IMG/VR virus record: IMGVR_UViG_3300005253_000218
Span: 1 to 47,420 of that record
From: a virus
DNA length: 47,420 nt
Strand: one strand, 5' to 3'
Part shown: one piece after another, positions 28,342 through 43,360 of the stretch
Position numbering within the stretch: position 1 is the first letter of the stretch
Layout: every line of letters starts with the position of its first letter
Notes under the pieces: generated by a model
Database searches by the model: none
Told to the model about the DNA's origin: nothing
What the model saw: only the letters and a program-made list of their open reading frames with translations
Program-made: the position numbers and the translations under genes

Positions 28342-28360
28342 CGAAGTAGCGTAAAATTTG

Positions 28361-28369: not shown

Positions 28370-28375
28370 TTATAG

Positions 28376-28553
28376 GTACCGCGCCTAAAAACCTCGCCTT
28401 TCAAGACGGGGATGTGAGGCGTTTGCCACCAAAGCCCACCAGCTTGTGGCAAACACAAACTAATAGGGCGGGGGCACCGCCTTCAGGGATAGGGTAGCAC
28501 TAGCGCCCTAAGTGAACTGAGAAGCCCCTTGATAAATCAAGGAGAGCTGTCAC
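28376..28553 (+). ncRNA. Orphan TnpB-type omega (guide) RNA, copy 2
   Basis: 5' hairpins CGCCT/AGGCG enclosing CCTCG/CGGGG, then TTTGCCAC/GTGGCAAA. The core is GGCGG-GGGCA-CCGCC, TTCAGGG, a structured loop, CTGAGAAGCCCC, a terminal hairpin and GTCAC. The core order equals the copy at 18291-18387, with compensatory stem changes. The sequence from 28554 would be the guide. It does not code for protein and no TnpB or IscB gene is near. Confidence 0.6.
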
Positions 28554-28584
28554 CTAAACCATCATTGAATAAGGAGAACAAAGA

Positions 28585-28962: not shown

Positions 28963-29010
28963 GCATCAAGGTAATCAATTTGATGCCTAATAACTCAGTG
29001 GTGTGATTTC

Positions 29011-29045
29011 ATGGCCATCTGATACTATTATAGTCAGGTGGTCAT
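29011..29045 (+). other. Leader hairpin, copy 1
   Basis: ATGGCCATCTGA pairs (with G-U) to TCAGGTGGTCAT around TACTATTATAG. A near-identical hairpin with matching flanks is at 29555-29590; a smaller GCATCAA/TTGATGC hairpin precedes it (28963-28986). It sits in the leader of the gene at 29087. Confidence 0.65.
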
Positions 29046-29086
29046 ATAAATTCAATGGAATTGACATATGGAAGGAGATGAACTTA

Positions 29087-29518
29087 ATGAGTTATTATAA
29101 TGAGCTTGAAATAGTTGCAATAGAATTAGATAATTCAGGGCAGAATCCTAGAGTGGTATATACCCATAAGGAAGGCAGATATACTGAGTGGGAATTCGAG
29201 TATAGTAAGAAACATGATTGGTATTATTATTATTGCATAGGTGACCATCCTATTTGTTACTATATTCATAAAGAGCCTATACTGTTTGATAGCACGAAAT
29301 ATTGGGTAAGTAACAAATTAGACATTCCAGTCATCGAAAAAGGGGATTGTGAAAAGATAGAAATATTATCATTTAGCATTGATAAACTTTTCCCCAAAAA
29401 AGCAGAAATAGATTCACCACCCGATTGGTGCAAGATCTGCAAGGACTGGTTTCCTTGGGACAATTATTGCGAGCATCTATGGTGGGATGACAATGAAGGT
29501 TGTGCAATTCAATTGTAA
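29087..29518 (+). CDS. 143-aa paralogue of the WCxIC...CxHLWWD zinc protein
   Basis: The start at 29087 follows GGAAGGAGATGAACTTA; the longer frame from 29003 crosses the leader hairpin and is rejected. The layout mirrors 21622-22176: a beta-rich N-terminus (RYTEWEFEYSKK, YWVSNK), then DWCKICKDWFPWDNYCEHLWWDDNEG near the end. It lacks the last zinc pair of the longer relative. Function unknown. Confidence 0.7.
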   Translation: MSYYNELEIVAIELDNSGQNPRVVYTHKEGRYTEWEFEYSKKHDWYYYYCIGDHPICYYIHKEPILFDSTKYWVSNKLDIPVIEKGDCEKIEILSFSIDKLFPKKAEIDSPPDWCKICKDWFPWDNYCEHLWWDDNEGCAIQL

Positions 29519-29554
29519 CGAATAGGTGCCTAATAGCTTCGTGGCTTGAAATCT

Positions 29555-29590
29555 ATGACCATCTGATACATATTATAGTCAGATGGTCAT
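29555..29590 (+). other. Leader hairpin, copy 2
   Basis: A perfect 12-bp stem, ATGACCATCTGA with TCAGATGGTCAT, loop TACATATTATAG. Flanks also match copy 1 (GCCTAATA... before, AAATxCAATG after). It lies 28 bp upstream of the gene at 29618. Confidence 0.7.
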
Positions 29591-29617
29591 GAAATCCAAT
29601 GTGGAGGGCAATAGCTA

Positions 29618-30091
29618 ATGAAATGTGTTTTATGCAAGGAAATATCTGACAGATTAAATGAATTAGAAGAATTACATGGAGAAGAATTCTGCACACAATT
29701 TAAAAAGACATTGTCGCATCCCTGTGAACCTGAGAACACAAATACTATGGAAGAATTATTAGATTACAAAAGAGCTTACTTTGAGGCAGGTTGGCTTGAT
29801 GCTATAGAAGAAATGCAGAAACTATCAGCACGTTTCAAGATAACAGAACAAACATTAAATACGCTAGAATCAGAAGATGTGTTCCTAGGCTTACGCTACT
29901 TCACATCAGAGATGCAGAATAATAATATTTTGCAACAATTACAAAGTCTTCTAAATAAAGAAGTTTTAGGTGAAGCAAACTTCATAGATATGCTTAAAAA
30001 AACAATAGGCGATAAACACACAGCTATGTTTAAAAAAATCATATTGAAGCATTCGCAAATCTTGAAGGAAACTATAGATGCCACTCAATAA
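29618..30091 (+). CDS. Unknown 157-aa helical protein
   Basis: It starts behind GTGGAGGGCAATAGCTA. CVLC at residues 3-6 and HPC near residue 35 may bind metal; the rest is alpha-helical (NNILQQLQSLLNKEV; TAMFKKIILKHSQILKE). Its 3' end overlaps the radical-SAM-type gene by 14 bp. No family is recognised. Confidence 0.65.
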   Translation: MKCVLCKEISDRLNELEELHGEEFCTQFKKTLSHPCEPENTNTMEELLDYKRAYFEAGWLDAIEEMQKLSARFKITEQTLNTLESEDVFLGLRYFTSEMQNNNILQQLQSLLNKEVLGEANFIDMLKKTIGDKHTAMFKKIILKHSQILKETIDATQ

Positions 30092-30788
30092 ACAGAAACC
30101 AGAAAGCGATATGTATAATTGGATTAGCCATAGTTTCACGCCAATTCGTGGACGATGTCCATACAAATGCAAATATTGCTACGCTAAACACTTCACTCAA
30201 AAAGCATTACATCTTGACCAGAAAGACCTTAAATTAGATTTATACAAAGATAGTACTCCAGATAAAAGAAATGTCATATTTGTATGTAGCACTATTGATA
30301 TGTTTCATCCTGACGTGCCAATTGAATGGATAGAAGAAGTGCTGAGACATTGTAATGAATTCCCTGATAATAAATATTTGTTGCAGACAAAAAGTCCACA
30401 TAGATATTGGCATTTCACACATCTTTTCACTAAACACTATGCTTTATGCACTACAATTGAAACTAATAGAGATACTTCTAGTATATCACTTGCACCACCT
30501 ACATGCAGGAGAGTAGTACAGATGGCGGTGCTTTCTAATAAAGGTTACAATGTTTCAATTACTATTGAGCCAATCATCCAATTTGACTTAGAGATTATGG
30601 TTGAATGGATGAAAGAAATTAAACCATTATGGATTAACATTGGCGCTGATTCTAAAGGTCATAATCTAGATGAACCATCATGGGATAAAGTGGAAGCGCT
30701 TATCTCAGAATTAAAGAAGTTTACTAGAGTTGTAATCAAGAATAATTTAGGGAGATTGAGGAAGTCAATCACCCCCACTGAATCATAG
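30078..30788 (+). CDS. Radical-SAM-type protein (DUF5131/phage Gp37-like)
   Basis: Carries CPYKCKYCYA with C27, C31 and C34, the CxxxCxxC cluster that binds 4Fe-4S in radical SAM enzymes. Later VIFVCSTIDMFHPDVP, HCNEFPDNKYLLQTKSPHRY and TTIETNRDT match the phage DUF5131 group, whose substrate is unknown. Length 236 aa fits. The ribosome site AAGGAAACTATAG lies in the preceding gene. The last codons (SITPTES) run into the terminal hairpin of the structured element at 30773, so the natural stop was probably changed by insertion. Confidence 0.75.
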   Translation: MPLNKQKPESDMYNWISHSFTPIRGRCPYKCKYCYAKHFTQKALHLDQKDLKLDLYKDSTPDKRNVIFVCSTIDMFHPDVPIEWIEEVLRHCNEFPDNKYLLQTKSPHRYWHFTHLFTKHYALCTTIETNRDTSSISLAPPTCRRVVQMAVLSNKGYNVSITIEPIIQFDLEIMVEWMKEIKPLWINIGADSKGHNLDEPSWDKVEALISELKKFTRVVIKNNLGRLRKSITPTES

Positions 30789-31173
30789 ATTCAGAAGGGG
30801 CTTGTTGAAATAATACGCTCTACTAAACAAGCCCGGTTGACCAGTCTTAGTCCTTGAGCTGATGGCAAGGCATTGATGGGTCTACGTTAGATGCAAATAT
30901 ATAGGTACTATCGGGTGCTTCACCAGCCTGGTACTCTACGGTATATGGTTAAAAGAACTTCTGGGGTATGGGACAGTGCTGTATACACAAAACTGCATCA
31001 TAACATTGACGAGGTGATACCGTTCGGGTTTGCCAGCCTAAGAACGTGTACCCGGGAAACCGGTGAACGGCCCAGGGGAGCCAGCCTAACGGCAAATTCC
31101 CCTACCATTCTATAATAGGAGGACGGCATTCCTCCCCTCCTGATTGTTCCAATCAGAAGGGGTATCCTGCCGT
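30773..31173 (+). ncRNA. Large structured RNA element A (about 400 nt)
   Basis: GC-rich, no credible ORF. It opens with hairpin CCCC..CTGAATC-ATA-GATTCAG..GGGG, then CTTGTT/AACAAG and the motif GGTTGACCAG. The middle has a CCGG-GAAA-CCGG tetraloop hairpin and a domain closed by TTTGCC/GGCAAA. It ends ACGGCA-[CCCCTCCTGATTG-TTC-CAATCAGAAGGGG]-TGCCGT. Element B (42968-43315, minus) repeats the order with the end stem GTCGCA/TGCGAC, a compensatory change. The terminal hairpins resemble IS200/IS605 ends. Alternatives: intron, HEARO-like RNA or a large phage RNA class. Confidence 0.65.
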
Positions 31174-31176
31174 AAA

Positions 31177-31422
31177 ATGATGAATCTTTTAACTCAAAAA
31201 GAACGTGTACAAAAATGGCATACAGAACTTGATAATGAGATATTGCGTTTAATGAGTAATAATCCCACAATTTGCCATGCACATAGTGCTAGCATTATGG
31301 AAGGCGAGATTGATGAAGTCCTTTTTTTAAAACGTGCAGTGGTTTTATTGGCTAAAGATAATGAGATTAAAACAAAACACTTTATGGAAGTGCTTCGCAA
31401 AAAGGAGTTAGAATTAATATGA
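31177..31422 (+). CDS. Unknown 81-aa helical protein directly after RNA element A
   Basis: The start is ATG 31177 or 31180, 3-6 bp after the element ends, so its only ribosome-like sequence (AAGGGG) lies in the element's terminal hairpin. The product is alpha-helical and charged (TELDNEILRLMSNN; LKRAVVLLAKDNEIKTKHFMEVL). If element A were removed, GAGGAAGTCAA upstream would fall at ribosome-site distance, suggesting the gene predates the insertion. Confidence 0.6.
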   Translation: MMNLLTQKERVQKWHTELDNEILRLMSNNPTICHAHSASIMEGEIDEVLFLKRAVVLLAKDNEIKTKHFMEVLRKKELELI

Positions 31423-31637
31423 AATGCAAGCAATGTGTAGCAAATAAGAAAGCGCTTAGTGTGATTAAACAGAAGTGTGAGGATTTAACTCAACAAGTGC
31501 TTGATGAGACTAGAGACCCATTAGATAGAGCTAAGTCAGCAACGCAATCTGTTCTGTATGTTGAATGGCTTGCTAGTAATATTGAGGTTACAAGAGATTA
31601 TGATTATGAGAAAAGTACGTCAAGTGTCAAGTGTTAA
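31419..31637 (+). CDS. Unknown 72-aa protein
   Basis: It overlaps its neighbour by 4 bp behind AAAAGGAGTTAGAATTAAT. CKQC at residues 3-6 and helical character (KKALSVIKQKCEDLTQQVLDETRD) suggest a small coiled coil with a metal knuckle. Function unknown. Confidence 0.6.
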   Translation: MKCKQCVANKKALSVIKQKCEDLTQQVLDETRDPLDRAKSATQSVLYVEWLASNIEVTRDYDYEKSTSSVKC

Positions 31638-31715
31638 ATGAAGTTTGGTGAGATAAAAAAAAGAGAAGTAAAGAGAATAACGACTGATGCTGAATTTCAT
31701 GATGGTTATAAATAG
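31638..31715 (+). CDS. Possible 25-aa microprotein
   Basis: The ATG follows the previous stop directly and the frame runs 25 codons (MKFGEIKKREVKRITTDAEF...). Coupled translation is possible, but there is no own ribosome site. Confidence 0.25.
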   Translation: MKFGEIKKREVKRITTDAEFHDGYK

Positions 31716-31730
31716 GCAAGGAGAAATTAA

Positions 31731-31967
31731 ATGAATCCAAAAGATTGGAAGGTTAAAGAATTTCAGACTTACTTTGGTACCCAAGATAAATTCAGGGATA
31801 ATTTAATCACACTAGCTACTGGTAAATATTCCATAGATATAATTAAATTTGATGAATGGTTGAAGGAAGAACACGGATATAATGAAACTGTGGATGGTTC
31901 TATGGAAGATTTTATAAAAGTCTCCTTTGGACAAGAAGCAGTGGAATTTATTGTTTCCTTGCTTTAA
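31731..31967 (+). CDS. Unknown 78-aa acidic protein
   Basis: It starts behind GCAAGGAGAAATTAA. Short helices and Asp/Glu-rich segments (FDEWLKEEHGYNETVDGSMEDFIKVSF). No motif is recognised. Confidence 0.6.
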   Translation: MNPKDWKVKEFQTYFGTQDKFRDNLITLATGKYSIDIIKFDEWLKEEHGYNETVDGSMEDFIKVSFGQEAVEFIVSLL

Positions 31968-31977
31968 AAAGGAGAAA

Positions 31978-32223
31978 ATGTATCTCATGGAAAGATTGTT
32001 TAATAATGATTATAGTTTAACAGAAGTTGGCAAATGGTTAGATATAGGTTTCAGCAAATATTTGGAAAAGATATTCACTGAATATTCTGAATATTCAATA
32101 AGAGAACTATCTCATTTGCTAACTCTAGCAGTACAACTAATAGAATGCGAGTTTATTCTGCGCGATAGAGATAGAGAATGTGAACTTATTTCACACAGGG
32201 GAGATAAAGAAAATGTTAGTTGA
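31978..32223 (+). CDS. Unknown 81-aa helical protein
   Basis: The start is set at ATG 31978 after AAAAAGGAGAAA (short spacing); ATG 31987 is the alternative. The product is helical and acidic (LEKIFTEYSEYSIRELSHLLTLAVQLIECEF). It ends in the next gene's ribosome site region. No family. Confidence 0.55.
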   Translation: MYLMERLFNNDYSLTEVGKWLDIGFSKYLEKIFTEYSEYSIRELSHLLTLAVQLIECEFILRDRDRECELISHRGDKENVS

Positions 32224-32416
32224 TAAAAATGGAAAGTCCATAGATTTAAGAAATGTGGGAATTCGAGATAAGAAACACTTATGTAGATATTTGAGAAACA
32301 ATGCCAATTTTTTCGAGCAGGATGATGATGAAAAGTTTCAAAGAAGGTTACATGCTATGAATTTAACTTTGCAGGCGTATGAAAAAAGGGCTGAAGGAGA
32401 CAAACTATGTGGTTAG
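32213..32416 (+). CDS. Unknown 67-aa basic protein
   Basis: The start at 32213 follows AGGGGAGATAAAGAAA; ATG 32180 lies before the site and is rejected. Basic N-terminal half (VDKNGKSIDLRNVGIRDKKHLCRYLRNN), helical C-terminal half. No motif. Confidence 0.55.
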   Translation: MLVDKNGKSIDLRNVGIRDKKHLCRYLRNNANFFEQDDDEKFQRRLHAMNLTLQAYEKRAEGDKLCG

Positions 32417-32697
32417 CTGGCACTCAAAAACCATTCACACAGGAACAAATTGATTCAATTGATAAGAATAAGTTTTGTAGATATGAGGCATTCAGAAGAA
32501 CAGGTGTCGCAAATATGTTTGACATCAAGACAGTGCAAGCATTTACACTTCTACCAAATGTTGACATCCATCTTATCATTTGTCATTATGATGAATTATC
32601 CAAGTTATACCATGATGAAGAGTTTATCAATCATTATAAAGAATGTTTCGATGATAAGACATCAAGGATACAAGATATTTTTTTGGAAAGTATATAG
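32407..32697 (+). CDS. Unknown 96-aa protein
   Basis: It starts behind GAAGGAGACAAACT, overlapping its neighbour. Good coding character. A longer frame in another phase (32450-32722) is a shadow. It contains VANMFDIKTVQAFTLLPNVDIHLIICHYDELSKLY. No family is recognised. Confidence 0.6.
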   Translation: MWLAGTQKPFTQEQIDSIDKNKFCRYEAFRRTGVANMFDIKTVQAFTLLPNVDIHLIICHYDELSKLYHDEEFINHYKECFDDKTSRIQDIFLESI

Positions 32698-32755
32698 TCA
32701 AAGCAAGTTGAATATATATTAATAAACAACATATACCTCATGCTAGTGGAGCGTA

Positions 32756-32971
32756 ATGATGATGATACCACCTCAAGAGATAAACAGATTGGAATATTTA
32801 GCAAATATGTTTAATATGTATGATTATCCGGAAGTAGCACATGTAGTAACTATTATCAAGCAGGGTTTAGATGCTAGCCTTCTTGATTATGATATTAAAC
32901 AATCAATCATAGCGACTAAGAACATAGCATCCAAGAAGGATATTCCAACAATAGAAATTTGCGATACCTGA
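32756..32971 (+). CDS. Unknown 71-aa helical protein
   Basis: It starts in a run of three ATG behind AGTGGAGCGTA. Helical (EINRLEYLANMFNMYDYPEVAHVVTIIKQGL), ending in IEICDT. No motif. It is followed by a perfect ACTAGCAA/TTGCTAGT hairpin near 32981-32998. Confidence 0.55.
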   Translation: MMMIPPQEINRLEYLANMFNMYDYPEVAHVVTIIKQGLDASLLDYDIKQSIIATKNIASKKDIPTIEICDT

Positions 32972-33012
32972 GATGAATAAACTAGCAAGTTTGCTAGTGA
33001 AGGAGCTTATCA

Positions 33013-33180
33013 ATGAAACCAATGAAGATGTGGGCTTGGTGGGATAATGAACGCGAGAAATTCGCACACATTTATGATAGCCAAAAGAAAGTAGAGATGT
33101 GTTTTCCATATGGGAGCCAACACGAAATAAAGAAAGGTAAGGGAAAACTAGTAGAAGTGATAGTGGTAGCAGCAAAATAG
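33013..33180 (+). CDS. 55-aa basic Trp-rich protein
   Basis: A short ORF behind GAAGGAGCTTATCA. Four Met/Trp-rich N-terminal residues (MKMWAWWDNEREKF) then a basic beta-like end (GKGKLVEVIVVAAK). Good ribosome site and coding pattern. Function unknown. Confidence 0.6.
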   Translation: MKPMKMWAWWDNEREKFAHIYDSQKKVEMCFPYGSQHEIKKGKGKLVEVIVVAAK

Positions 33181-33199
33181 ATTCGTAGTATACCATTAC

Positions 33200-33239
33200 T
33201 TGACCTTGGTAGATTGAAATACTAATTTATCAAGGTCAA
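33200..33239 (+). other. Intergenic hairpin with 12-bp stem
   Basis: TTGACCTTGGTA pairs to TATCAAGGTCAA (one G-U) around a 16-nt loop. It has no T-run. It sits in the leader of the 33267 gene, like the leader hairpins at 29011 and 29555. Confidence 0.55.
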
Positions 33240-33266
33240 CCAAACGATTAGTTAAGGAGATTTAAT

Positions 33267-33491
33267 ATGAAATTGAATCGGGAGATAAAAAAGATGAATG
33301 GAAGCAATGCTTTCGAAAATGATGATGATTTTTATGTAGAATACGATGATGAATATGAATGGCACGGAGTGTTTGGCAATCAAACTGGTTTCTGCTACTT
33401 TGCATCCTATGATTTTGACAGAGCAGAAATTGAGTGCAGGGATCTAATTAGAATGAAAGAATCAGCAGTCAGAAGAAGAAAAGTAAAATAA
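33267..33491 (+). CDS. Unknown 74-aa protein
   Basis: It starts behind TAAGGAGATTTAAT. Acidic aromatic middle (DDDFYVEYDDEYEWHGVF) between basic ends (RRRKVK). It may be a small OB-like or adaptor fold, but no family is recognised. It directly precedes the first Mom-like gene. Confidence 0.6.
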   Translation: MKLNREIKKMNGSNAFENDDDFYVEYDDEYEWHGVFGNQTGFCYFASYDFDRAEIECRDLIRMKESAVRRRKVK

Positions 33492-33517
33492 TACTTAATT
33501 GGTGAAAGAGAGAAATA

Positions 33518-34183
33518 ATGATGATGATTTTTAAGAAACCTGACATATTGTCTACAATAGATGATAAGTTCTTTGATATCGCGAAAGTCATATCAATAAC
33601 TTATCAAGACACCAAACCTTGGATATTAGACAAACACTACGCTAACAGAATGCCTAATGTGAAATACAGTTTTGGACTTTTGTTCAAATCACAAATAATA
33701 GGTATCTGCACATTTGGTATTCCAGGTTCTCCGTTTTTATGCAAAGGTATCTGTGGTATTGAATATAAAGATAATGTGTTGGAATTAAACCGACTTGTGA
33801 TCAACGATGGTGTTCCCCGTAACTCGGCAAGTTTTCTTGTGGCAAACAGTATCAAGCAACTTCCACCTAAAAGTATACTTGTATCTTACGCTGACACCAA
33901 AATGGGTCATATTGGATATGTTTACCAAGCAACCAATTGGATATACACTGGTTGCACTAAAGAAAGAACTGATATATATGCTGGCGATGGTAAGCATTCG
34001 AGGCATCACCTTGGTGATAAATCAAACAGGCAACAGCGAAGTGCTAAACATAGGTATGTTTATTTTCATAAATGCCCTAAAGAGATTAAGAATAACTTGC
34101 GTTATCCTGTTTTATCATATCCGAAAGGTGAAACACGTAGATATAAAACTCCAAAAATAGCAACCCAACAAATGTTGTTTTAG
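33518..34183 (+). CDS. Mom-like DNA adenine-modification protein, copy 1
   Basis: Resembles the Mu Mom family, a GNAT-type fold that adds a carbamoylmethyl group to adenine and so protects phage DNA from restriction enzymes. Seen here: WILDKHYANRMP near residue 35, a GFxxxG-like ICTFGIPGSP, VLELNRLVINDGVPRNSASFLVANSI near 87-112, and VSYADTKMGHIGYVYQATNWIYTG near 122-145, with ADxxxGHxGxxYQAxNW as the diagnostic core. Length 221 aa is normal. The weak site is GTGAAAGAGAGAAATA. A second relative lies at 35457. Activity and target are inferred. Confidence 0.75.
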   Translation: MMMIFKKPDILSTIDDKFFDIAKVISITYQDTKPWILDKHYANRMPNVKYSFGLLFKSQIIGICTFGIPGSPFLCKGICGIEYKDNVLELNRLVINDGVPRNSASFLVANSIKQLPPKSILVSYADTKMGHIGYVYQATNWIYTGCTKERTDIYAGDGKHSRHHLGDKSNRQQRSAKHRYVYFHKCPKEIKNNLRYPVLSYPKGETRRYKTPKIATQQMLF

Positions 34184-34411
34184 TGTTTAATCATTAGAGC
34201 AAAAATAATACTTGACAATTGATTGTTTTATGTGTTATAATATAAATATACATTTTCAAATCATTTAGGTCTCCTTTCATTTTGACCGATAATATCTCCT
34301 ATGGATTAGCTATCCTTTAGGTCTCTGAATAAGACGGGTTCAAGATTTTCCTACCAAAGTCTTCTTTGCCGCCTATCTTATTCAGAACCAGGAGAGAAAA
34401 GGCAAAGAGGC
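34184..34411 (+). promoter_or_regulatory. Promoter and structured 5' leader of the 34412 gene
   Basis: TTGACA (34212-34217), 18 bp, TATAAT (34236-34241) with TG extension. The roughly 165-nt leader contains two anti-ribosome-site blocks (GTCTCCTTTC near 34268, TATCTCCTAT near 34290) and a stem CTGAATAAGA/TCTTATTCAG that precedes the CCAGGAGAG ribosome site. The CTCCT blocks could mask the site, so translation may be switchable. Confidence 0.55.
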
Positions 34412-35323
34412 ATGAACAAACCAAACAAAAATAATTCAATACATGAACAATCGATACCAGATACGTGTGTCTTGGTCACAGACTATCCTGCAATATCCGA
34501 GCAAGCACTTCTAAATAAGCATGCCAGATATTATGATGTGTGGCTCATTCTAAGAGAAACATATAAGCATCAAGGCAACTGTAGTAAGGCTCAAGCGGCT
34601 AGCTTAATTGCTTCTCAATTTAACATCAGAAAATGGTCTGCTTATAGGATAATTCGTGAAGGCGATGGAATATTCTGGAATCTTAATCCTAAAAATGGAG
34701 AAGTTAAATCACACATCTGGATTGTGAGCATTGAGAAAGTCTGCCGTAGATACAATATTGATAAGTGCAGACAGAGTGTTGTTATTGATTTGCGCGGAAG
34801 AGAAAGCGTTCAAGAACGTAGAGCGGGTATCTATGAAGCGGCTATTGTTAAACAACCTACAAGTAAAGCAATCCCAGTATCCAGAGACAACATAACAAAA
34901 AGAACTGGCGTTTCAAGGTCAACTCAACTGAATTATGAAAAGAAATGGAAAGCAGAAAAGCAATATAATTATATGGTTTGCTGTGAGCTTGATGGTCTGA
35001 CAGAAGAACAACAATATTCTCGTATATTAGATTTTACAGATAACATACATGGAGAATATCAAGTCAGAGAAATTCATGGTAGGAAGTTACTGATCAAACA
35101 AATTCCGAACATGTATATAGACCCTATGTTTGAATGGGGCGAAAAATCTGCATTAAACAGACTGAACAAAACTCTTCGAAATCCTAACGACAAGATAGCG
35201 ATAGGGAAATCGCAAGAAAGGGTTCATCCTTATGTAGATAGCACATACCAAACAATCTTTAAGAATCTAAATCTATGGTCGGGGAAAGTAACCTTGAATT
35301 ACAAGATAAATCATTTTTCATAA
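34412..35323 (+). CDS. 303-aa HTH-type DNA-binding protein between two Mom-like genes
   Basis: Residues about 38-100 (YYDVWLILRETYKHQGNCSKAQAASLIASQFN then AYRIIREGDGIFWNL) form a probable winged-helix/HTH domain, repeated in the small protein at 37138. A second HTH-like block (SRDNITKRTGVSRSTQLNYEKKW) is near 155-180. It is basic overall. It could be a regulator of modification or a replication protein; no named family. It has its own promoter and leader. Confidence 0.6.
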   Translation: MNKPNKNNSIHEQSIPDTCVLVTDYPAISEQALLNKHARYYDVWLILRETYKHQGNCSKAQAASLIASQFNIRKWSAYRIIREGDGIFWNLNPKNGEVKSHIWIVSIEKVCRRYNIDKCRQSVVIDLRGRESVQERRAGIYEAAIVKQPTSKAIPVSRDNITKRTGVSRSTQLNYEKKWKAEKQYNYMVCCELDGLTEEQQYSRILDFTDNIHGEYQVREIHGRKLLIKQIPNMYIDPMFEWGEKSALNRLNKTLRNPNDKIAIGKSQERVHPYVDSTYQTIFKNLNLWSGKVTLNYKINHFS

Positions 35324-35372
35324 AACAAAAAAATGTCTTATCTCATATCCATCATAGGATAGGATACAGGTA

Positions 35373-35444
35373 ATGGAAGCAAAAGGTTGGAATAGTCTTA
35401 GTATTGTAATAGTATTATTAGTTATCGTCATCTTTGTTTATTAG
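35373..35444 (+). CDS. Possible 23-aa membrane peptide
   Basis: ATG behind ATACAGGTA, then MEAKGWNSLSIVIVLLVIVIFVY, a single hydrophobic helix. It may be a real microprotein, but the ribosome site is modest. Confidence 0.4.
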   Translation: MEAKGWNSLSIVIVLLVIVIFVY

Positions 35445-35456
35445 GGAGAAGTTGTA

Positions 35457-36230
35457 ATGCTAGATAGAATAGATTATATTAGTAAGAATGAAGCTATTTC
35501 GTTGGTTCAAAAATATCATTATTCTAAAGTTATGCCAAGAATTACTAAGTATTGCATTGGTGGATTCAAGAATAATGAATTAGTTGCGATATGCACTTTA
35601 GGTTATGGAGTTCGTCCATTACATACAATTAGGAAATGTTTTCCTGATTTAACATCAAAAGATTATTTAGAGATTGGTAAACTATGTGTGACTGACGCTA
35701 TGCCTAAAAATACTGAAAGTTATTTCATTGCTAGAATAGTTAAGCTAATAAAACAGACTTTACCTGAAATCAAACTATTATATTCTTGGTCAGATGGTAT
35801 AATTGGTAAGCCTGGATATGTTTATCAAGCTAGTAATTTCTATTACGGTGGATTCATTTGGACTGAAATGTATATAGATAGCAAAGGCAATAGAGTGCAT
35901 CCGCGTACTCTTCAAGGTATCTCTGATGGTGAGAAATCTAATGGCAACAAATTCAAATCTCGCAGTTATGAAGTTACAACTCAAATGGGTTACACCAAAT
36001 ATTTTGGATTGCAATTTCGTTATCTATATCCATTATGCCATAAACAAGAATGGAGAAAGTTACAAGAAACATCACCATTTGAATGGAATAGAAATAGTTA
36101 TCCTAAAGATAAAGATTGTTTGTGGAAGAAACAAGTAGCCAAAGGAGAGCATGAATCTTGTGGATTGCCTCCATTCAAACATACCAATTATGTTAAGGAT
36201 ACAAACAAACAATTACAGTTGTTCAATTGA
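35457..36230 (+). CDS. Mom-like DNA modification protein, copy 2
   Basis: A paralogue of the 33518 gene in layout: YHYSKVMPRITKYCIGGF at the start, LVAICTLGYGVRP, LEIGKLCVTDAMPKNTESYFIARIVKLI near 72-100, and LYSWSDGIIGKPGYVYQASNFYYGG near 107-131. GKPGYVYQASN stands in for the GHxGYVYQATNW of copy 1. It has a C-terminal extension of about 100 residues with Cys/His (LYPLCHKQEW; GEHESCGLPP). The ribosome site is TTAGGGAGAAGTTGTA. Divergence from copy 1 suggests a different target or partner. Confidence 0.7.
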   Translation: MLDRIDYISKNEAISLVQKYHYSKVMPRITKYCIGGFKNNELVAICTLGYGVRPLHTIRKCFPDLTSKDYLEIGKLCVTDAMPKNTESYFIARIVKLIKQTLPEIKLLYSWSDGIIGKPGYVYQASNFYYGGFIWTEMYIDSKGNRVHPRTLQGISDGEKSNGNKFKSRSYEVTTQMGYTKYFGLQFRYLYPLCHKQEWRKLQETSPFEWNRNSYPKDKDCLWKKQVAKGEHESCGLPPFKHTNYVKDTNKQLQLFN

Positions 36231-36244
36231 AAAAGGAGATACAA

Positions 36245-37138
36245 TTGATTCTTCAAGACTTGAAATCAAAGAATCTTATTCATCCACCTAAGTTCTTAGT
36301 TGGTAATACTCAATACTTAACTAGAATGGGAAGTGAAGCTTATGGTGTAAGCATTGATAATTCAGATATAGATATGTATGGGTTTACTATTCCACCTAAA
36401 GAACTAGTATTCCCACATTTAGATGGAGAAATTCTAGGATTTGGTAAACATAAGAAAAGGTTTGACCAATTTCAAGCCCATCATATTGAATTCAAAGAAA
36501 AACAATATGATTTTTCTATCTATTCCATTATTAAATACTTCCAACTCTGTATGGAGAATAATCCTAATATGATTGATAGTTTATTCACACCATTTAATTG
36601 TGTAACATATATTACTAGCATTGGACAGATAGTGAGAGAAGACAGGAAACTCTTTCTGCATAAAGGTTGCTGGGCGAAGTTCAAAGGTTATTCATATTCA
36701 GAATTACATAAAATGCGGAGCAAGACGAGAGAAAGTTCAACAAGAAAAGAATCAATTGCTAAGTATGGTTACGACCTCAAGGGTGCTTATAACATAGTCA
36801 GATTGCTATCAGAAGTTGAAATGATTTTAGAAGAAGGAGATTTGGATTTACAAAGAAACAGAGAACAATTAAAGTCAATTCGGAGAGGTGAATGGACAGA
36901 AAAAGATGTAGTTGATTATTTCAGCAGAAAAGAAATTGAATTAGAAACTCTATATCAGAATTCTAGTCTACCATATTCACCTGATGAGCATGCTATTAAA
37001 CAATTGTTATTGAATTGCCTAGAACAGCATTATGGTAGCATTGACATGATAGTTGTAGCTGATAAATATGAATCTGCCATTAAGGAAATAGGGGAAATTT
37101 GTAGCAAGGTTACAAAAAAAGGAGTGAGAACATCATAA
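36245..37138 (+). CDS. Pol-beta-superfamily nucleotidyltransferase
   Basis: Starts at TTG 36245 behind AAAAAGGAGATACAA; the longer TTG frame from 36227 would contain the ribosome site. GSEAYG (29-34) and NSDIDMYG (39-46) give the Gly-Ser helix turn and the DxD metal ligands of the fold, most like the COG3541/RlaP-type proteins seen in large phages. Helical C-terminal domain to residue 297. It may transfer a nucleotide to RNA, protein or another substrate; unknown here. Its place between Mom-like and HTH genes hints at the modification island. Confidence 0.7.
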   Translation: MILQDLKSKNLIHPPKFLVGNTQYLTRMGSEAYGVSIDNSDIDMYGFTIPPKELVFPHLDGEILGFGKHKKRFDQFQAHHIEFKEKQYDFSIYSIIKYFQLCMENNPNMIDSLFTPFNCVTYITSIGQIVREDRKLFLHKGCWAKFKGYSYSELHKMRSKTRESSTRKESIAKYGYDLKGAYNIVRLLSEVEMILEEGDLDLQRNREQLKSIRRGEWTEKDVVDYFSRKEIELETLYQNSSLPYSPDEHAIKQLLLNCLEQHYGSIDMIVVADKYESAIKEIGEICSKVTKKGVRTS

Positions 37139-37383
37139 TGATGCGTTATCAAACAGTAAATGATTCTGTACTAGAAAATGCGTGGTTAATACTCAGGGAA
37201 TGTAACGGAGAGAGCTGTTCAAGAGATGAATCTGTTGCGTCCTTAGTAGAACATATGGTAATAGATAAACGATTTGCTCATGACATTATTCATAAAGGAC
37301 GATATGGTTTTTGGCACATAGCATTAAATGAAAATAACGATGAGAGAATCTATATTCATAGTAAAGGGTTGCATATATACTAG
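37138..37383 (+). CDS. 81-aa HTH protein, short paralogue of the 34412 N-terminus
   Basis: Block pattern equals residues about 40-100 of the 34412 product: AWLILRECNGESCSRDESVASLVEHM, then FAHDIIHKGRYGFWHIAL. It is a stand-alone version of the same small DNA-binding domain. It overlaps the nucleotidyltransferase stop by one base behind AAGGAGTGAGAACATCATA. Each copy of the domain lies near a Mom-like gene. Confidence 0.6.
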   Translation: MMRYQTVNDSVLENAWLILRECNGESCSRDESVASLVEHMVIDKRFAHDIIHKGRYGFWHIALNENNDERIYIHSKGLHIY

Positions 37384-37397
37384 GAGAAACCTAGCCG

Positions 37398-37667
37398 ATG
37401 AATAAATGGTATGGATTAACAGCAGATGGTAGCACAATTCCATTAGAGAAAGAATGTGAATGTATTATCCATGATGAACCACACTGGATACACATGGATA
37501 GATTGAAGCACGAACTAAATAAAAAATATTATGATAAACCAACAACTCTAAATCTTAAAGCATTGGCAATTTTAGAAGCATCAAGATTAAAAGAAAAGGA
37601 ATATCATTTTAAGAGACTAAATATAATTGAAATTGAGGAGCATCCATTAAATGAGCAGAGATTATGA
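37398..37667 (+). CDS. Unknown 89-aa protein
   Basis: It starts behind TAGGAGAAACCTAGCCG. Contains CECIIHDEPHWIHMDRLKHEL near residues 18-40, possibly a metal-binding His/Cys set. Helical, basic C-terminus. No family is recognised. Confidence 0.55.
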   Translation: MNKWYGLTADGSTIPLEKECECIIHDEPHWIHMDRLKHELNKKYYDKPTTLNLKALAILEASRLKEKEYHFKRLNIIEIEEHPLNEQRL

Positions 37668-38268
37668 GAAACATTACAGAGAATTATCAGATAAATTGAA
37701 TAGAGACAGAGAAAAGGATATGCAAGCATTATCGAAATGGTATCTAAGCACTAAGTCATTAGACTTAACATCTGAAGAACATTTAGAATTAATGGAACTA
37801 TTAGGATTTGAAAGACGAGAATCATCTAATGAATTCAATTTAGAAGAAGCAGATTATGCAAGCGAGGTAAGCATAAGGTTCAATAGTTGGTTTAAGAAAA
37901 GGTGGGAATTCTTGAATGAATATTACAAAGTTATGCAATCAGCAGCGAACAGTTTCAACGATGCAGTATCAATGCTGAATGATATTGAATGGAATTCCGA
38001 GTTTAAGGTTAAAACAGAATCGACGATATATATAAATTGTGCATATATATTGTATAAACACTTGGACATAATATTGGAACAAGGTGATAATTATAGCCCA
38101 TCTAAAACAGCTATTGTATTGACAGAAGAACAGTTCAAGGATTGGTCTAAGGCTATCTGTATAGGTTTTGGCAGAATAACTATTGAAGTGAAAGGTAATA
38201 CAGTCTATCTCGTTTGCGATAATGGCGAACGTCACACCATCGGGTATAAAAAGATATGCAAACTATAA
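37651..38268 (+). CDS. Unknown 205-aa helical protein
   Basis: It starts behind TTGAGGAGCATCCATTAA, overlapping its neighbour by 17 bp. Acidic alpha-helical N-terminal half (SEEHLELMELLGFERRE) and a beta-like end (RITIEVKGNTVYLVCDNGERHTIGYKK). No motif. Confidence 0.6.
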   Translation: MSRDYEKHYRELSDKLNRDREKDMQALSKWYLSTKSLDLTSEEHLELMELLGFERRESSNEFNLEEADYASEVSIRFNSWFKKRWEFLNEYYKVMQSAANSFNDAVSMLNDIEWNSEFKVKTESTIYINCAYILYKHLDIILEQGDNYSPSKTAIVLTEEQFKDWSKAICIGFGRITIEVKGNTVYLVCDNGERHTIGYKKICKL

Positions 38269-38471
38269 TAACTAACACTCAGATAAGTAAAGAATTTGAT
38301 GCTCATATCTATAATGGCTATAATCAATATAGCCATAAATTCTTACACTATGCTCAAGCAATGTTTATTCTAGCTCAAAAGACAGAGCATATGCTAGATG
38401 AGTTTGATGTGAAAGATTGGCAATTTGAAATTAAACATTTACAGGATTATTTGGAGGTACATAATGGGTAA
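38256..38471 (+). CDS. Unknown 71-aa helical protein
   Basis: It overlaps the preceding gene by 13 bp with a weak ribosome site (AAAAAGAT). Helical (YSHKFLHYAQAMFILAQKTEHML). Its end supplies GGAGGT for the next gene. Confidence 0.5.
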   Translation: MQTIITNTQISKEFDAHIYNGYNQYSHKFLHYAQAMFILAQKTEHMLDEFDVKDWQFEIKHLQDYLEVHNG

Positions 38472-38676
38472 AGTAATTATAGATAATCGTATAGAAGATT
38501 TCCCTGATGTTGATGCTCTACATTTAGTTAGCAAAGTAATGGAGAAAGGGAGAATTTCTAATAATGGTAAACAATATTGTCTAGGTACCGTATATGATTA
38601 TCAAGGAAAACGTATCGTTATTCATGCTTTACTAAACAAACAATCGGATAGATTTGTATTAATAGGAGGAGAATAA
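38464..38676 (+). CDS. Unknown 70-aa protein
   Basis: The start at 38464 follows GGAGGTACATA; an upstream frame from 38425 contains that site and is rejected. Beta-rich (GKVIIDNRIEDFP; QGKRIVIHALLNKQSDRFVLIGGE). It resembles a small barrel. Function unknown. Confidence 0.6.
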   Translation: MGKVIIDNRIEDFPDVDALHLVSKVMEKGRISNNGKQYCLGTVYDYQGKRIVIHALLNKQSDRFVLIGGE

Positions 38677-38682
38677 TTAAGC

Positions 38683-38973
38683 ATGATGCGAGCTACGAGT
38701 CGCCTAGATAAGTTATGGAAAAGATACGAAACTCAGGTTTACGAATATTGCAAAAACCAATTTGATGAATATATAAAGCCTTACTGTATTAAACATGATT
38801 TAGAATTTACTACTGGCAATGGTACATGGTGGTTGGGTAAAGAGAAAGGCAATGAACTCAGGGAAGGAATCCCTGAAAGGTTACTACTGTATAATATATT
38901 AACTGAACCTATTCCTGGAATGCTTAGTAATGATGTGGGTTCATTAATGCCTGATTACAGAAGGAGCGATTAA
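38683..38973 (+). CDS. Unknown 96-aa basic protein
   Basis: Behind AGGAGGAGAATAATTAAGC. Basic aromatic N-terminus (TSRLDKLWKRYETQVYEYCKNQF) and LEFTTGNGTWWLGKEKG. It precedes the DNA methyltransferase. No family is recognised. Confidence 0.6.
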   Translation: MMRATSRLDKLWKRYETQVYEYCKNQFDEYIKPYCIKHDLEFTTGNGTWWLGKEKGNELREGIPERLLLYNILTEPIPGMLSNDVGSLMPDYRRSD

Positions 38974-38977
38974 TTGA

Positions 38978-39844
38978 TTGGTCAAATTGACCCGAATGAT
39001 GATGAAACATAAAATAATAATTGGTGATGCTAGAAATATGAATGAAGTGCTAGGTGAATCAGTACATCTAGCACTTACTAGCCCACCATATTATAGCATC
39101 AAAGACTATGGTGAAAGCAATCAGATAGGATATGGAAGCTATTATCTGCATTATTTAAAGGATTTAGATATGGTATGGGCAGAATGCCTTCGTGTGCTTC
39201 ATAAGGGCTGTCGGTTATGTATCAATGTAGGAGATCAATATCTAAGCGCTAAAGAGTATGGTAGATATAGAGTGCTTCCTATACATGCTGAGATTATAAG
39301 GTCTTGCGAACAAATTGGATTTGACTATATGGGCTCTATCATTTGGCAGAAAGTAAGCACTACTAATCCATCTGGTGGTGCTAGTATTATGGGCTCCCAC
39401 CCTTATCCAAGAAATGGGATTGTTAAATATGACTATGAATATATAATGCTATTTAAAAAGTTAGGGGATTCACCTAAAGTTAGTGAGCATATCAAAGAAC
39501 AATCTAGCATGACTAAAGATGAATGGAATGAATACTTCAGTGGACATTGGAAAATAGCAGGTGTTAAACAAGACGTTCATCCTGCTATGTTCCCACTAGA
39601 AATTCCAGTTAGACTAATCAAAATGTTCAGTTTTGTAGAAGAAGTTGTGCTAGATCCATTCTTAGGTTCTGGCACTACAATGAGCGCAGCTAAAATGCTA
39701 GAAAGAAATTCAATTGGTTATGAGATAAATGAACAGTTTCTTCCAGTGATTAAAAATAAGGTAGGGTTTAATCAATATGATTTATTTGAAGAGCATAAAT
39801 TTGAAATAATAACGCAAAAGGAGAAGAATAATAATGTCAAATAA
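38978..39844 (+). CDS. Beta-class DNA methyltransferase (TSPPY)
   Basis: Motif IV TSPPYY (34-39) comes first and motif I DPFLGSGTT (226-234) late, the beta-class order. TSPPY is most common in N4-cytosine enzymes; DPPY would suggest N6-adenine, so m4C is favoured but not proven. Length 288 aa, with an HYPPR-like binding region not identified. It starts at TTG 38978, 11 bp after AAGGAG; ATG 38996 is an alternative. No restriction enzyme is adjacent, so it is probably a solitary anti-restriction methylase. CTAG is enriched in this DNA and is a testable target. Confidence 0.85.
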   Translation: MVKLTRMMMKHKIIIGDARNMNEVLGESVHLALTSPPYYSIKDYGESNQIGYGSYYLHYLKDLDMVWAECLRVLHKGCRLCINVGDQYLSAKEYGRYRVLPIHAEIIRSCEQIGFDYMGSIIWQKVSTTNPSGGASIMGSHPYPRNGIVKYDYEYIMLFKKLGDSPKVSEHIKEQSSMTKDEWNEYFSGHWKIAGVKQDVHPAMFPLEIPVRLIKMFSFVEEVVLDPFLGSGTTMSAAKMLERNSIGYEINEQFLPVIKNKVGFNQYDLFEEHKFEIITQKEKNNNVK

Positions 39845-40121
39845 ACCCAAAGCACAGTTACTAGAAGCAGATAGACAGATAAGAGCATTATCACCTAATA
39901 AAGGGATGACTAATGGCACAAAACCTCAAATAAGAATAACACTAATAAGAGGGTTTGAGTTGTTTAATACTAGATCATATCACAATTATGAAACATGGTC
40001 AGATGGATATAAGGCCGAAGCATTCGATGGCGTTGGTAATGTAATAGCACAAGTGTCTGCAGAAGACCTGGATGATGTCTTGGTAAAATTAGAAATAAAA
40101 ATGAAGGAGAATGAAGAATGA
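39834..40121 (+). CDS. Unknown 95-aa protein
   Basis: It starts behind AAAAGGAGAAGAATAATA, overlapping the methyltransferase by 11 bp. Mixed charge: IRITLIRGFELFNTRSYHNYETW then an acidic end (EDLDDVLVKLEIKMKENEE). It may be co-translated with the methylase. No family. Confidence 0.55.
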   Translation: MSNKPKAQLLEADRQIRALSPNKGMTNGTKPQIRITLIRGFELFNTRSYHNYETWSDGYKAEAFDGVGNVIAQVSAEDLDDVLVKLEIKMKENEE

Positions 40122-40330
40122 AAGCTACTGATTACAGAGAATTAGTCAATAAGGAGTTACCACACCTGAATATATTTAGAATGAGCCCACGTATTGCTAC
40201 ACCAGAATTGTTGAAGATGGTAGCGGTACAATTGTTTTTGCAGAGGAGCAACAATGAAATCTTGATCGATGCAACAAGAGAGAATTTGTTAGCATTAGAA
40301 TTACCCGAAGCAACACATAATTTTGAATAG
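40118..40330 (+). CDS. Unknown 70-aa protein
   Basis: Overlaps its neighbour by 4 bp (ATGA), behind GAAGGAGAATGAAGA. Helical with a Leu-rich middle (PELLKMVAVQLFLQRSNNEI). It is the last plus-strand gene; a convergent hairpin follows. Confidence 0.55.
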   Translation: MKATDYRELVNKELPHLNIFRMSPRIATPELLKMVAVQLFLQRSNNEILIDATRENLLALELPEATHNFE

Positions 40331-40338
40331 TTAACGCA

Positions 40339-40394
40339 ATATTAGACTAGGAAAATATCTTGCGTCCCAATTTTAAATTTCCCTAGTCTAATAT
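40339..40394. terminator. Hairpin between convergent gene blocks
   Basis: ATATTAGACTAGG with CCTAGTCTAATAT (13 bp) plus a bulged AAAT/ATTT. No long T-run. It sits between the last plus gene and the end of the minus operon, so it may serve both strands. Confidence 0.55.
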
Positions 40395-40401
40395 AACATA
40401 T

Positions 40402-41259
40402 TTATTTGTTATCCCATCCCAAAATTCCAGATTGTTCTTCAAGATTCTCATCCAACCATTTAACTTCCATAGGTTCTATTCCTTCCATTAACCTTGCCTT
40501 AACTTCTGGAATATCGCCATCCCATTTTTGTTTGAAGTACATTCTTGATTCTAACATCCTTTGAGAAGGTTTTAGTGCTTCTACGTTAGTCTCGAATGTT
40601 CTAGCCCATAAATGAAATAATCTTGGGTGATTTAATGTAATTGACCTTACACCTTGATTATGTAGCTGAACAGAAAAACTAACTTCTTCAAAAAAAGACT
40701 TGTAATTTTCATCAAAACCATCAGTCATCTCATAAGTATCTCTCGACATCATGAATGAACATCCAGGAGCATAAAATGAAAGCATAGGTTTATCAGGTAT
40801 AATAATCGCATCCATTATTTTTGCTGAATTCTTATGTCGAAAAGGTGCTGCTTTACCATTTAATATTCCTTCAATATCATCTTCAATTATTCTATTGAAA
40901 TCCCATCCAACAATACCAATAATAGGATTATGTTCTATCATATAAATCCCAGAAGTAAGCCAATTATCAACTATCATTATATCATCATTTAGCAAGCAGA
41001 TATAGTCCGGATTTCCATACATACATATATCATTCCATGAAGCAGATATGCCTTTATTCTCAGCATGAAAAATAACAGGAACACCAAAATGTCGTGCTAT
41101 CCAGTTCATTTGGTCACTATCTGGAGAACCATCGTCAACTAATAATAATTCTATTTTATATCCAACGGGTATATCATGAACCTTCTTAAGGGAAGTAAGC
41201 AGATGATTTATTCTATAAGCACCATTGAAGGTTGGAATTCCAATAAGTATTATTTTCAT
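40402..41259 (-). CDS. Family-2-like glycosyltransferase (GT-A)
   Basis: Transfers sugar from a nucleotide donor, donor and acceptor unknown. DDGS (42-45) and NDD (91-93) are the GT-A nucleotide/metal motifs; GCSFMMSRDTYEMTDGFDENYKSFFEEVSFSVQL near 170-205 is the acceptor-side ED region. 285 aa, cytoplasmic. It overlaps the next glycosyltransferase by 4 bp, so the two were probably co-made. It is the last gene of the minus operon. Confidence 0.85.
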   Translation of the reverse strand: MKIILIGIPTFNGAYRINHLLTSLKKVHDIPVGYKIELLLVDDGSPDSDQMNWIARHFGVPVIFHAENKGISASWNDICMYGNPDYICLLNDDIMIVDNWLTSGIYMIEHNPIIGIVGWDFNRIIEDDIEGILNGKAAPFRHKNSAKIMDAIIIPDKPMLSFYAPGCSFMMSRDTYEMTDGFDENYKSFFEEVSFSVQLHNQGVRSITLNHPRLFHLWARTFETNVEALKPSQRMLESRMYFKQKWDGDIPEVKARLMEGIEPMEVKWLDENLEEQSGILGWDNK

Positions 41260-41993
41260 AGACCAAAATGTCTCCTAATTAGTTTAAACTCCATTGCTTC
41301 AGGTTTCATATTCCATTTCTCTTCAAAATAAGACATCTCGCGGGCTAACATTTGCTCTCGAGTTACCTTGATCACCTTACCTAAAGTTGAATTTTCGATA
41401 TGAAATACTTTGGGATAATTTACTCTTAAACTAATTTTACATAACTTGTCAGCTATCATACAACAGAAATCAGCATCTCCTAGGCTCATTCTGTAGTTCT
41501 CATCAAATCCACCAACTTGATTATAATCAATCTTCGAAAAACAATAACAGTATCCAGCTAATTGCGTAGCAGGAGTTTTGACTACAGGGGTTTTGGGGCA
41601 AAAACTCAATTTGTCTTCATCTAAAGACATGAAATAATCAAAATTCACATGAGTTGATTCATACCCTATAACTCCATATCTTTCATTCATATCCTCCATT
41701 AGTATATTTCGGAAACATTTAGGAACAGCGACATCACTATCAATCAAACATATCAGATCATTTTTAGCATTGCTAGCAATAACATTCCATCCATAAACTA
41801 ATCCTCTATTTTCTTCATTTCTTATAAAAACAGCATCATATTTTTCAGCTGCTTCTTTAAGATAATCATCATCATCTGACCCATCATCATAAACAATAAT
41901 TTCATCTTCATTTGATTTAGAATGCTGAAGTGAAAATAAACATCTGTCCAAAAAATCAGAACCATTGTAGCAAGCAACCCCAAATGTAATCAT
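41256..41993 (-). CDS. Glycosyltransferase family 2 protein
   Basis: GT-A fold: DDGS (36-39) after VYDDGSDDDD, DSD (85-87) in CLIDSDVAV, and GGFDENYRMSLGDADFCCMI near 160-180 for the catalytic ED segment. 245 aa, no membrane span. Overlaps both neighbours by 4 bp. Together with the 40402 and 45386 genes it suggests building or decorating a glycan. Confidence 0.85.
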   Translation of the reverse strand: MITFGVACYNGSDFLDRCLFSLQHSKSNEDEIIVYDDGSDDDDYLKEAAEKYDAVFIRNEENRGLVYGWNVIASNAKNDLICLIDSDVAVPKCFRNILMEDMNERYGVIGYESTHVNFDYFMSLDEDKLSFCPKTPVVKTPATQLAGYCYCFSKIDYNQVGGFDENYRMSLGDADFCCMIADKLCKISLRVNYPKVFHIENSTLGKVIKVTREQMLAREMSYFEEKWNMKPEAMEFKLIRRHFGL

Positions 41994-42784
41994 AAAATAT
42001 ATCCTATTTGTTTACACATATGATGACAAACATATCTATAGGTATCAATTTCTTTCCCGCGCCAATTATCCATAAAAGCAAGAGATTTCATTTGACCTTT
42101 ATTGGATTGGTGTAACATGTATTTAAACAGTTCTATCTGTTCTGTACTGGCTTCTGGATATAAAATAGTTAATACTTCTTGGGCATTAGAATTAAATTCT
42201 TCACTTCTAAAATGATGTTTATTAGATTGAATAAAAAAATCATTTATCTGTACCCAATATTTACACCAATGATGAAACATTCCAGAATACGTTGCTTTCT
42301 CATCATCACATAACTTTTCCAGTGAAGATGGAAGCTGGTAATGGCTATCTTGAGGAAATACACAATATAATTCATCTAGAGAAGGTGGAAATAACTCATC
42401 ACCATATTTATGAATTCCTGTGATTCCCATTCTACCATATAATAGATATAGCTCTACTAATCTTTTCGGATGATGCGACAGAAAAACGCATCTATTAGGA
42501 ATATCTAATGCTTCAATAACTGGCCAGAATAGAGATAAATAATAAGAAGTATTACAATAAAAACCATTGCCTTCTATATAGGGAGAAATTATCGTAGAGA
42601 ATTCATCGATTATATTTTGGATTTGCAAATCGATGTCATTCACAAATAATCCTTGAATCCAATTAAAATAGACAGAAGATAAATCAATCTCTTCATCATA
42701 ACGAGCATTTAATCCAATTGTTTCTAGAGCAAGGGATAAATGAGTGAGTCTTCCCGCACTGAGGGAATAAATTAAAGTCTTCAT
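41990..42784 (-). CDS. Unknown 264-aa protein of the glycosyltransferase operon
   Basis: It is coupled to the glycosyltransferase downstream by a 4-bp overlap, and an ORF with a phage RNA element in it lies just upstream. The N-terminal SLSAGRLTHLSLALETIGL and the middle IPNRCVFLSHHPKRLVELYLLYGRMG are faintly like sulfotransferase regions, but the family's P-loop-like motif is not convincing. A remote sulfotransferase or glycosyltransferase are both possible. Unassigned. Confidence 0.6.
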   Translation of the reverse strand: MKTLIYSLSAGRLTHLSLALETIGLNARYDEEIDLSSVYFNWIQGLFVNDIDLQIQNIIDEFSTIISPYIEGNGFYCNTSYYLSLFWPVIEALDIPNRCVFLSHHPKRLVELYLLYGRMGITGIHKYGDELFPPSLDELYCVFPQDSHYQLPSSLEKLCDDEKATYSGMFHHWCKYWVQINDFFIQSNKHHFRSEEFNSNAQEVLTILYPEASTEQIELFKYMLHQSNKGQMKSLAFMDNWRGKEIDTYRYVCHHMCKQIGYIL

Positions 42785-42795
42785 TATATATAAGG

Positions 42796-43360
42796 CTAAC
42801 TAATCAATTGGTTCCTAAGTTCTAATAGCTCTAGTTCTAATGATGAAACACGCGCTATTAATGCTTCATTAGAACTAGATGTGCTAGAACTAGCATAACT
42901 ATCCATCAATGTTTCTAGCGTATCTGTTTGAGAATGCTGATTTGTGCTACACAACTCTTTAACTCCCGTCGCAGAAGTCCCCTTCTGATTGTTTCAATCA
43001 GGAGGGGATGAATGCGACAAGAACACGTATACGTCTTTTATGACCTCTTACGTGCAAAGAGTAAGTTCCTCCTCGCCCTTGTTATCTCGTGTTGTCATGT
43101 TTAGCACACTATTCCTACCCCACAGAATGGTTTAGCACTAAACCACAGAGCTCCCGACTGGAAGAACATCTGGAGGTGTGGTGCAACGAGTAACTTCTCC
43201 TCTACGATGTTACGATAAAGGGAGCTGGTCAACCTGGGACTTGCCTTATCCATTTCAGACAAGCCCCTTCTGATTTGTATGGCTCTTTAGAGTCATTGAA
43301 AATCAGGAGGGGTTGTTGACATCTATTATATATATCTTCATCTACCGTTATCCTTTTCAT
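42796..43360 (-). pseudogene. Small gene split by RNA element B
   Basis: On the minus strand ATG 43360 follows TAAGGAGAAAAG and overlaps the upstream stop; it reads MKRITVDEDIYNRC, then meets the element. After the element (42968) a frame from 42963 to TAG 42796-42798 reads VKELCSTNQHSQTDTLE... and ends ARVSSLELELLELRNQLIS, a plausible coiled-coil tail. Joining the parts yields about 70 aa. If the RNA splices, the gene is intact; otherwise it is broken. Exact junctions are unknown. Confidence 0.6.
42968..43315 (-). ncRNA. Large structured RNA element B (about 350 nt), inside a gene
   Basis: Homologue of element A on the minus strand. It has CCCCTCCTGATTT...AAATCAGAAGGGG at the 5' end, CTTGTC/GGCAAG, CCCAGGTTGACCAG, a long-range AGCTCCC/GGGAGCT pair, TTCTGTGGGGTAGG, ATAACAAGGGCGAGG, and the 3' hairpin closed by GTCGCA/TGCGAC. 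A uses ACGGCA/TGCCGT there, so the stem, not the sequence, is conserved. TTGAC (plus strand 43316-43320) flanks it. It has no ORF of note. Confidence 0.65.

Follow-up and report, generated by a model that had tools for sequence, protein, structure and literature searches.

HEARO/IscB elements are relatives of the ancestors of Cas9. HEARO reportedly adjoins ATGA or GTGA, and standalone omegaRNAs have reportedly been described (Weinberg 2009; Altae-Tran 2021). Later work established that the HEARO RNA acts as guide (omega) RNA for IscB nucleases (PMC9755519). Two TAMs have been measured in this family, namely NTGA for DtIsrB (PMC9581776) and NTAAA for OrufIscB (PMC13180657). IS608 serves as the structural reference for the IS200/IS605 group. 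In its crystal structure, target base T-4 pairs with A+17 of the end and T-3 with A+16, and A+42 and T+43, which follow the hairpin, form base triplets with those pairs (PMC5934647). A guide RNA equal to the flank lets the related nuclease TnpB remove insert-free copies and thereby drive the insert, as shown in plasmids (PMC11870625).

The window analysed here is the whole of IMG/VR virus record IMGVR_UViG_3300005253_000218 (positions 1 to 47,420; 47,420 nt). It very probably carries two IS200/IS605-like elements of the IscB/HEARO type, both non-autonomous and without an ORF. They are hereinafter designated A and B and lie in opposite orientation on the record. They represent a known kind of element, present twice in one phage at two classes of landing site; their anatomy is unusually complete, but they do not constitute a new RNA class.

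Two HEARO elements in one viral record

Both loci were scanned with all Rfam families, and HEARO (RF02033) alone reaches threshold. Locus A matches at 30764-31020 on the plus strand (101.8 bits, E 6e-20 over the whole window) and locus B at 43320-43061 on the minus strand (112.6 bits, E 1.5e-22 over the whole window). Both scores exceed the curated gathering score of 83 bits, and both matches are full-length, covering model positions 1-211 of 211. Sub-threshold matches to Clostridiales-3 and mir-135 at the loci are attributed to chance. The first-pass annotation had described two homologous structured RNAs with a series of shared features, consistent with the match of both loci to one covariance model far above chance. 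It had been unable to assign a known RNA class; the Rfam scan including HEARO, the check that it had asked for, provides that class. The extents that it gave, 30773-31173 and 42968-43315, fall on the real loci, but the true limits are slightly wider (30764-31176 and 43320-42963).

Each locus is a complete small element without an ORF, consisting of a left end, the omegaRNA and a right-end double hairpin. The first hairpin of the omegaRNA forms one transposon end, and the double hairpin the other. The guides were placed on the basis of the IscB/omegaRNA layout (PMC9640706).

Element A
30764..31176 (+): element A, whole, 413 bp, from the GTCAA start to the base before target ATGA (comparison with HEARO elements elsewhere, joint test)
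30748..30763 (+): left flank TAGGGAGATTGAGGAA, predicted to be a 16-nt guide that is read into the omegaRNA 5' end (inferred from IscB/omegaRNA layout)
30764..31020 (+): omegaRNA, HEARO RF02033, 101.8 bits (Rfam)
30772..30800 (+): left-end hairpin, identical with the first hairpin of the omegaRNA (DNA fold, z -4.3)
31021..31122 (+): linker, where autonomous elements have the IscB gene (sequence)
31123..31173 (+): right-end double hairpin, C-type, GCATTCCT...TCCTGC (comparison, DNA fold)
31177..31180 (+): target/TAM ATGA, right flank; an 81-aa ORF (31177-31422) starts with its ATG

Element B
42963..43320 (-): whole of element B, 358 bp (limits set against other HEARO elements, joint test)
43321..43336 (-): predicted 16-nt guide, left flank (inferred from IscB/omegaRNA layout)
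43061..43320 (-): omegaRNA, HEARO RF02033, 112.6 bits; the first hairpin is the left end (Rfam, DNA fold)
42968..43018 (-): right-end double hairpin, A-type, GCATTCAT...TTCTGC (comparison, DNA fold)
42958..42962 (-): target/TAM TTAAA, right flank (joint test; NTAAA is a measured IscB TAM, PMC13180657)
43321..43360 (-): first 40 nt of the interrupted ORF (the joint with 42962-42796 leaves a 68-aa frame open)
42796..42962 (-): remainder of the same interrupted ORF (joint test)

A and B resemble RF02033 HEARO elements in the full-length match, the GTCAA start and the place of the RNA at one transposon end. In contrast to HEARO elements with an ORF, neither has an IscB gene next to the RNA, and the right end follows directly after a short linker. 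The linker of A (31021..31122) contains a GAAA-loop stem (31052-31063) and AGGAGG (31117-31122), and no IscB coding remnant is found there or in B. The omegaRNA family, both ends, the target class and the frame-restoring joints are all read from the DNA sequence itself.

RNA fold and transposon ends

On the RF02033 consensus, 57 of 67 model pairs are formed in A and 56 of 67 in B; these counts were taken from printed model alignments, which are fitted to the structure and therefore lean towards the model. Fifty of the 67 pairs are formed in both elements: the bases are the same in 26 of them, while one side has changed in 8 and both have changed in 16. The sequences of A and B have diverged to the point that BLASTN aligns short pieces only, yet the fold is retained.

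The tail past the Rfam match, described previously as a 3' double hairpin, lies outside the omegaRNA model and is the right end of the element. Folded as single-stranded DNA, it beats shuffled sequences by a wide margin in both A (z -4.3) and B (z -6.1), and the compensatory change proposed for its outer stem is confirmed (ACGGCA/TGCCGT in A versus GTCGCA/TGCGAC in B). Subterminal imperfect hairpins are present at both ends of both elements. The likeness to IS200/IS605 ends seen on first reading is borne out.

Two other parts of the first-pass annotation did not stand. TTGAC had been proposed as a border motif at both ends; the left GTCAA pairs with internal TTGACCAG in the first stem of the Rfam model, and TTGAC was rejected as a shared end motif, being the partner of GTCAA within the RNA. 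The GAAA stem had been read as a sign of a ribozyme-like core, but this CCGG-GAAA-CCGG stem (31052-31063) is part of a linker, absent from B, that lies beyond the omegaRNA. Rfam gives no group I or group II intron or ribozyme match at either locus at E up to 1. Of the earlier interpretation, homology of the RNAs and IS200/IS605-like ends are thus retained, while the absence of a class and the ribozyme-like core are not.

A and B share with IS200/IS605 elements, as represented by IS608, the subterminal imperfect hairpins, the target motif at one end and, at positions that would correspond to the base triplet, covariation of end and target (see below). They differ in having neither TnpA nor TnpB, and in carrying an omegaRNA at the end away from the target motif, on the strand opposite to that of a TnpB gene.

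Insertion sites

Element A sits between genes, exactly 5' of a start codon. Its removal joins the end of a DUF5131 gene (...LGRLRK-stop) to the ATGATG of the next gene, with overlapping stop and start. Removal of B joins codons 1-13 of a 68-aa ORF with the remainder (MKRITVDEDIYNR-FKELCSTNQ...), and among 17 joints tried around the predicted one, the long frame is kept by the predicted joint and one other only. The 68-aa ORF has a weak ParG/ribbon-helix-helix likeness, below the curated cut-off. The predicted empty joints (slash) are ...TTGAGGAA/ATGATG... for A and ...AATAGAT/TTAAAG... for B. A fixed target motif lies at the right end, ATGA in A and TTAAA in B; the left flanks are unrelated, and there is no target duplication.

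In the viral contigs searched, sequence patterns of the empty A site are absent, and those of the empty B site have two matches, both unrelated. Relatives of the flanking genes were found in a single near-identical phage contig among the viral contigs, L003 (IMGVR_UViG_3300005663_000205), which matches window 28321-37895 with 99.7% identity and has A in the same place. The match to L003 also brought out a direct repeat of about 75 bp (28984-29057 and 29527-29601, 82% identical) around the ends of ORF 29003-29518.

HEARO elements elsewhere

A search with a pattern of the HEARO 5' part returned 7 viral stretches and at least 119 genome stretches, and an IscB profile built from 26 ORFs was run on the sequence downstream of the matches. 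Among the matches listed, IscB is present downstream of 45 and missing from 53 despite at least 700 nt available, although some of the latter may not be HEARO; for another 30 of the matches listed the sequence ended too soon to judge. Of 19 loci examined with cmscan, 16 reach the gathering score for HEARO, and 14 of these 16 have no IscB.

HEARO elements elsewhere, with or without IscB, have the same GTCAA left border, and their left flanks vary freely up to GTCAA. The right end of one large group reads GCATTCNT-CCCC-hairpin-GGGG-NNTYCTGC, with NTGA a few bases on. This right-end type is common to both kinds, lying about 1.5 kb downstream in elements with IscB and 300-450 nt downstream in those without. 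A and B have the same layout. At the nucleotide level, BLASTN of A and B against 50,697 phage records gave no match, and the exact right-end hairpin pattern was not found in the genomes searched.

Among the IscB-encoding elements found, the one closest to A lies on viral contig L146 (IMGVR_UViG_3300014613_002062). It is 76% identical to A in the left end, 74% in the omegaRNA core and 80% in the right end; unlike A, which has no gene, it contains a 429-aa IscB gene between the omegaRNA and the right end and is about 1.6 kb long. The ORF matches solved IscB structures, and relatives are encoded by eight further viral contigs. In the simplest history, A would be an internally deleted derivative of an L146-like IscB-encoding element.

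ORF-less HEARO loci in Methanosarcina, Desulfamplus and Ectothiorhodospira have the left border, right-end type and 300-450 nt spacing observed here. Their NTGA target is of the same class as that of A, whereas the NTAA target of B is not represented among them; moreover, these loci are cellular, while A and B are on a viral record. Another viral contig (L007:262-5378) contains three HEARO elements in tandem, and every one of them has an IscB ORF.

End type covaries with target class

A right-end pattern scan of viral contigs yielded 44 stretches, and a non-redundant set was used for covariation. Most of the 44 matches are without HEARO, and many of these are accompanied by an ORF on the other strand that is TnpB-like by eye. 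From this, what is the right end in HEARO elements appears, read on the other strand, to be the left end in TnpB-like elements of the IS200/IS605 group.

Two end positions covary with the flank, namely the one that follows GCATTC and Y in TYCTGC. C-type ends have a TGA flank in 30 cases, TAA alone in 0, both in 3 and neither in 1, while A-type ends have TAA in 12 cases and TGA in 1 (Fisher p 8e-10 on the non-redundant set, not corrected for kinship). Element A has a C-type end with ATGA, and element B an A-type end with TTAAA. Seen from the transposase strand, the two target classes are TCAN and TTAN. Matched by position, the covarying bases would correspond to IS608 -3, +16 and +43, with an A:T pair and T in A-type ends and a G:C pair and G in C-type ends.

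The targets of A and B equal the measured family TAMs NTGA and NTAAA. Through the covariation of end and target, one readable rule would cover both targeting by the transposase and the TAM of the nuclease (NTGA or NTAAA), and the end sequence could predict the TAM of uncharacterised elements.

Helper proteins and alternative explanations

The 47-kb record, a viral contig that may be incomplete, contains no match to the IscB profile (the 45 positive loci serving as control), no HNH match and no match to the Y1 transposase family PF01797, for which control genomes gave matches. A and B could therefore act only with proteins from elsewhere. Specifically, a Y1 transposase from another element would move them as single-stranded DNA and would recognise NTGA (A) or NTAAA (B) sites through pairing with the end. 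The omegaRNA would carry the left flank as guide, so that the guide would equal the insertion site. If the host or another phage provided IscB in trans, the nuclease would then cleave insert-free copies that have the guide match and the TAM, and such cleavage would favour retention or spread of the element. By analogy with TnpB, A and B may exert an IscB-guided drive.

The strongest competing explanation is that A and B are dead relics, that is, elements of the same kind that have decayed by internal deletion and are neither transcribed nor mobile. They have no ORF, helper genes are missing from the record, promoter-like sites are not above chance at either locus, and the occurrence of A at the same site in the near-identical contig is compatible with immobility. 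Against decay, A and B retain 50 of the 67 model pairs in common, 16 of them via two-sided changes; the fold has outlasted the divergence of A from B, and both ends are intact and match their own target class. We regard the relic explanation as quite possible, though somewhat doubtful.

Alternatively, A and B might be phage-adapted guide RNAs, with omegaRNAs being kept since IscB of the host or a co-infecting phage, once loaded with them, would destroy competing insert-free phage genomes. The guides would indeed equal phage sequence, IscB is present on viral contigs, RNA-guided drive by TnpB has its precedent in plasmids (PMC11870625), and A is at the same site in a second contig over a stretch of 99.7% identity. 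Because that contig is nearly the same phage, however, conservation of the site says little, and both A and B are in ordinary element contexts at usual targets. We consider such adaptation quite unlikely. The open frame across the B joint could also be explained by a self-splicing, IStron- or intron-like RNA that leaves the mRNA. This is extremely improbable: the loci have no group I/II intron or ribozyme match, A lies between genes, and IS200/IS605-type insertion without target duplication explains the same joints.

A and B provide two complete, closely delimited gene-less elements of the IscB type in one record, one per target class. Together with the IscB-encoding relative on another viral contig, they make persistence in phages by guide RNA alone testable.

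Shine-Dalgarno-like motifs at C-type ends

In element A, AGGAGG (31117-31122) abuts the stem ACGGCA/TGCCGT, and ATGATG begins 3 nt past the stem (31117-31180 in all). The RNA centroid fold of A leaves AGGAGG unpaired. A hairpin-bridged Shine-Dalgarno for the ORF downstream of A is plausible.

In other elements, too, such a motif is enriched in front of C-type ends. Of 32 C-type ends, 23 have a Shine-Dalgarno-like motif within the 14 nt that precede the outer stem, versus 13% of upstream control windows (binomial p 3e-14, post hoc on the same data and not corrected for kinship). With the stretch after the stem included, the motif is found in 26 of 32 C-type versus 3 of 12 A-type ends (p 0.0009, likewise post hoc and not corrected for kinship). 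Next to 27 of the 32 C-type ends, NTGA has A as its first base. In 16 of 28 cases, an ORF of 40 codons or more begins at the flanking ATG, versus 32% when every ATGA of the same contigs is counted (p 0.005, again post hoc on the same data with kinship not corrected). Alternatively, C-type ends contain CCTCC, to which GGAGG can pair, and this pairing would account for the difference between the classes without translation.

A scheme that combines the two aspects would be RNA-only homing, in which omegaRNAs, loaded on IscB from the host or another element, direct cutting of the empty sites of rival phages in co-infection, so that a gene-less 0.4-kb element spreads itself, while the hairpin-bridged Shine-Dalgarno of the NTGA-class end restores translation of the target gene. 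We consider this combined scheme unlikely.

Other genes of the phage

All matches to the phage DnaB are below 60% identity. Between A and B, the phage encodes two paralogues of the Mom family (DNA modification; 33518-34183 and 35457-36230), followed by an RlaP-like nucleotidyltransferase (36227-37138), with a DNA methyltransferase nearby (38978-39844).
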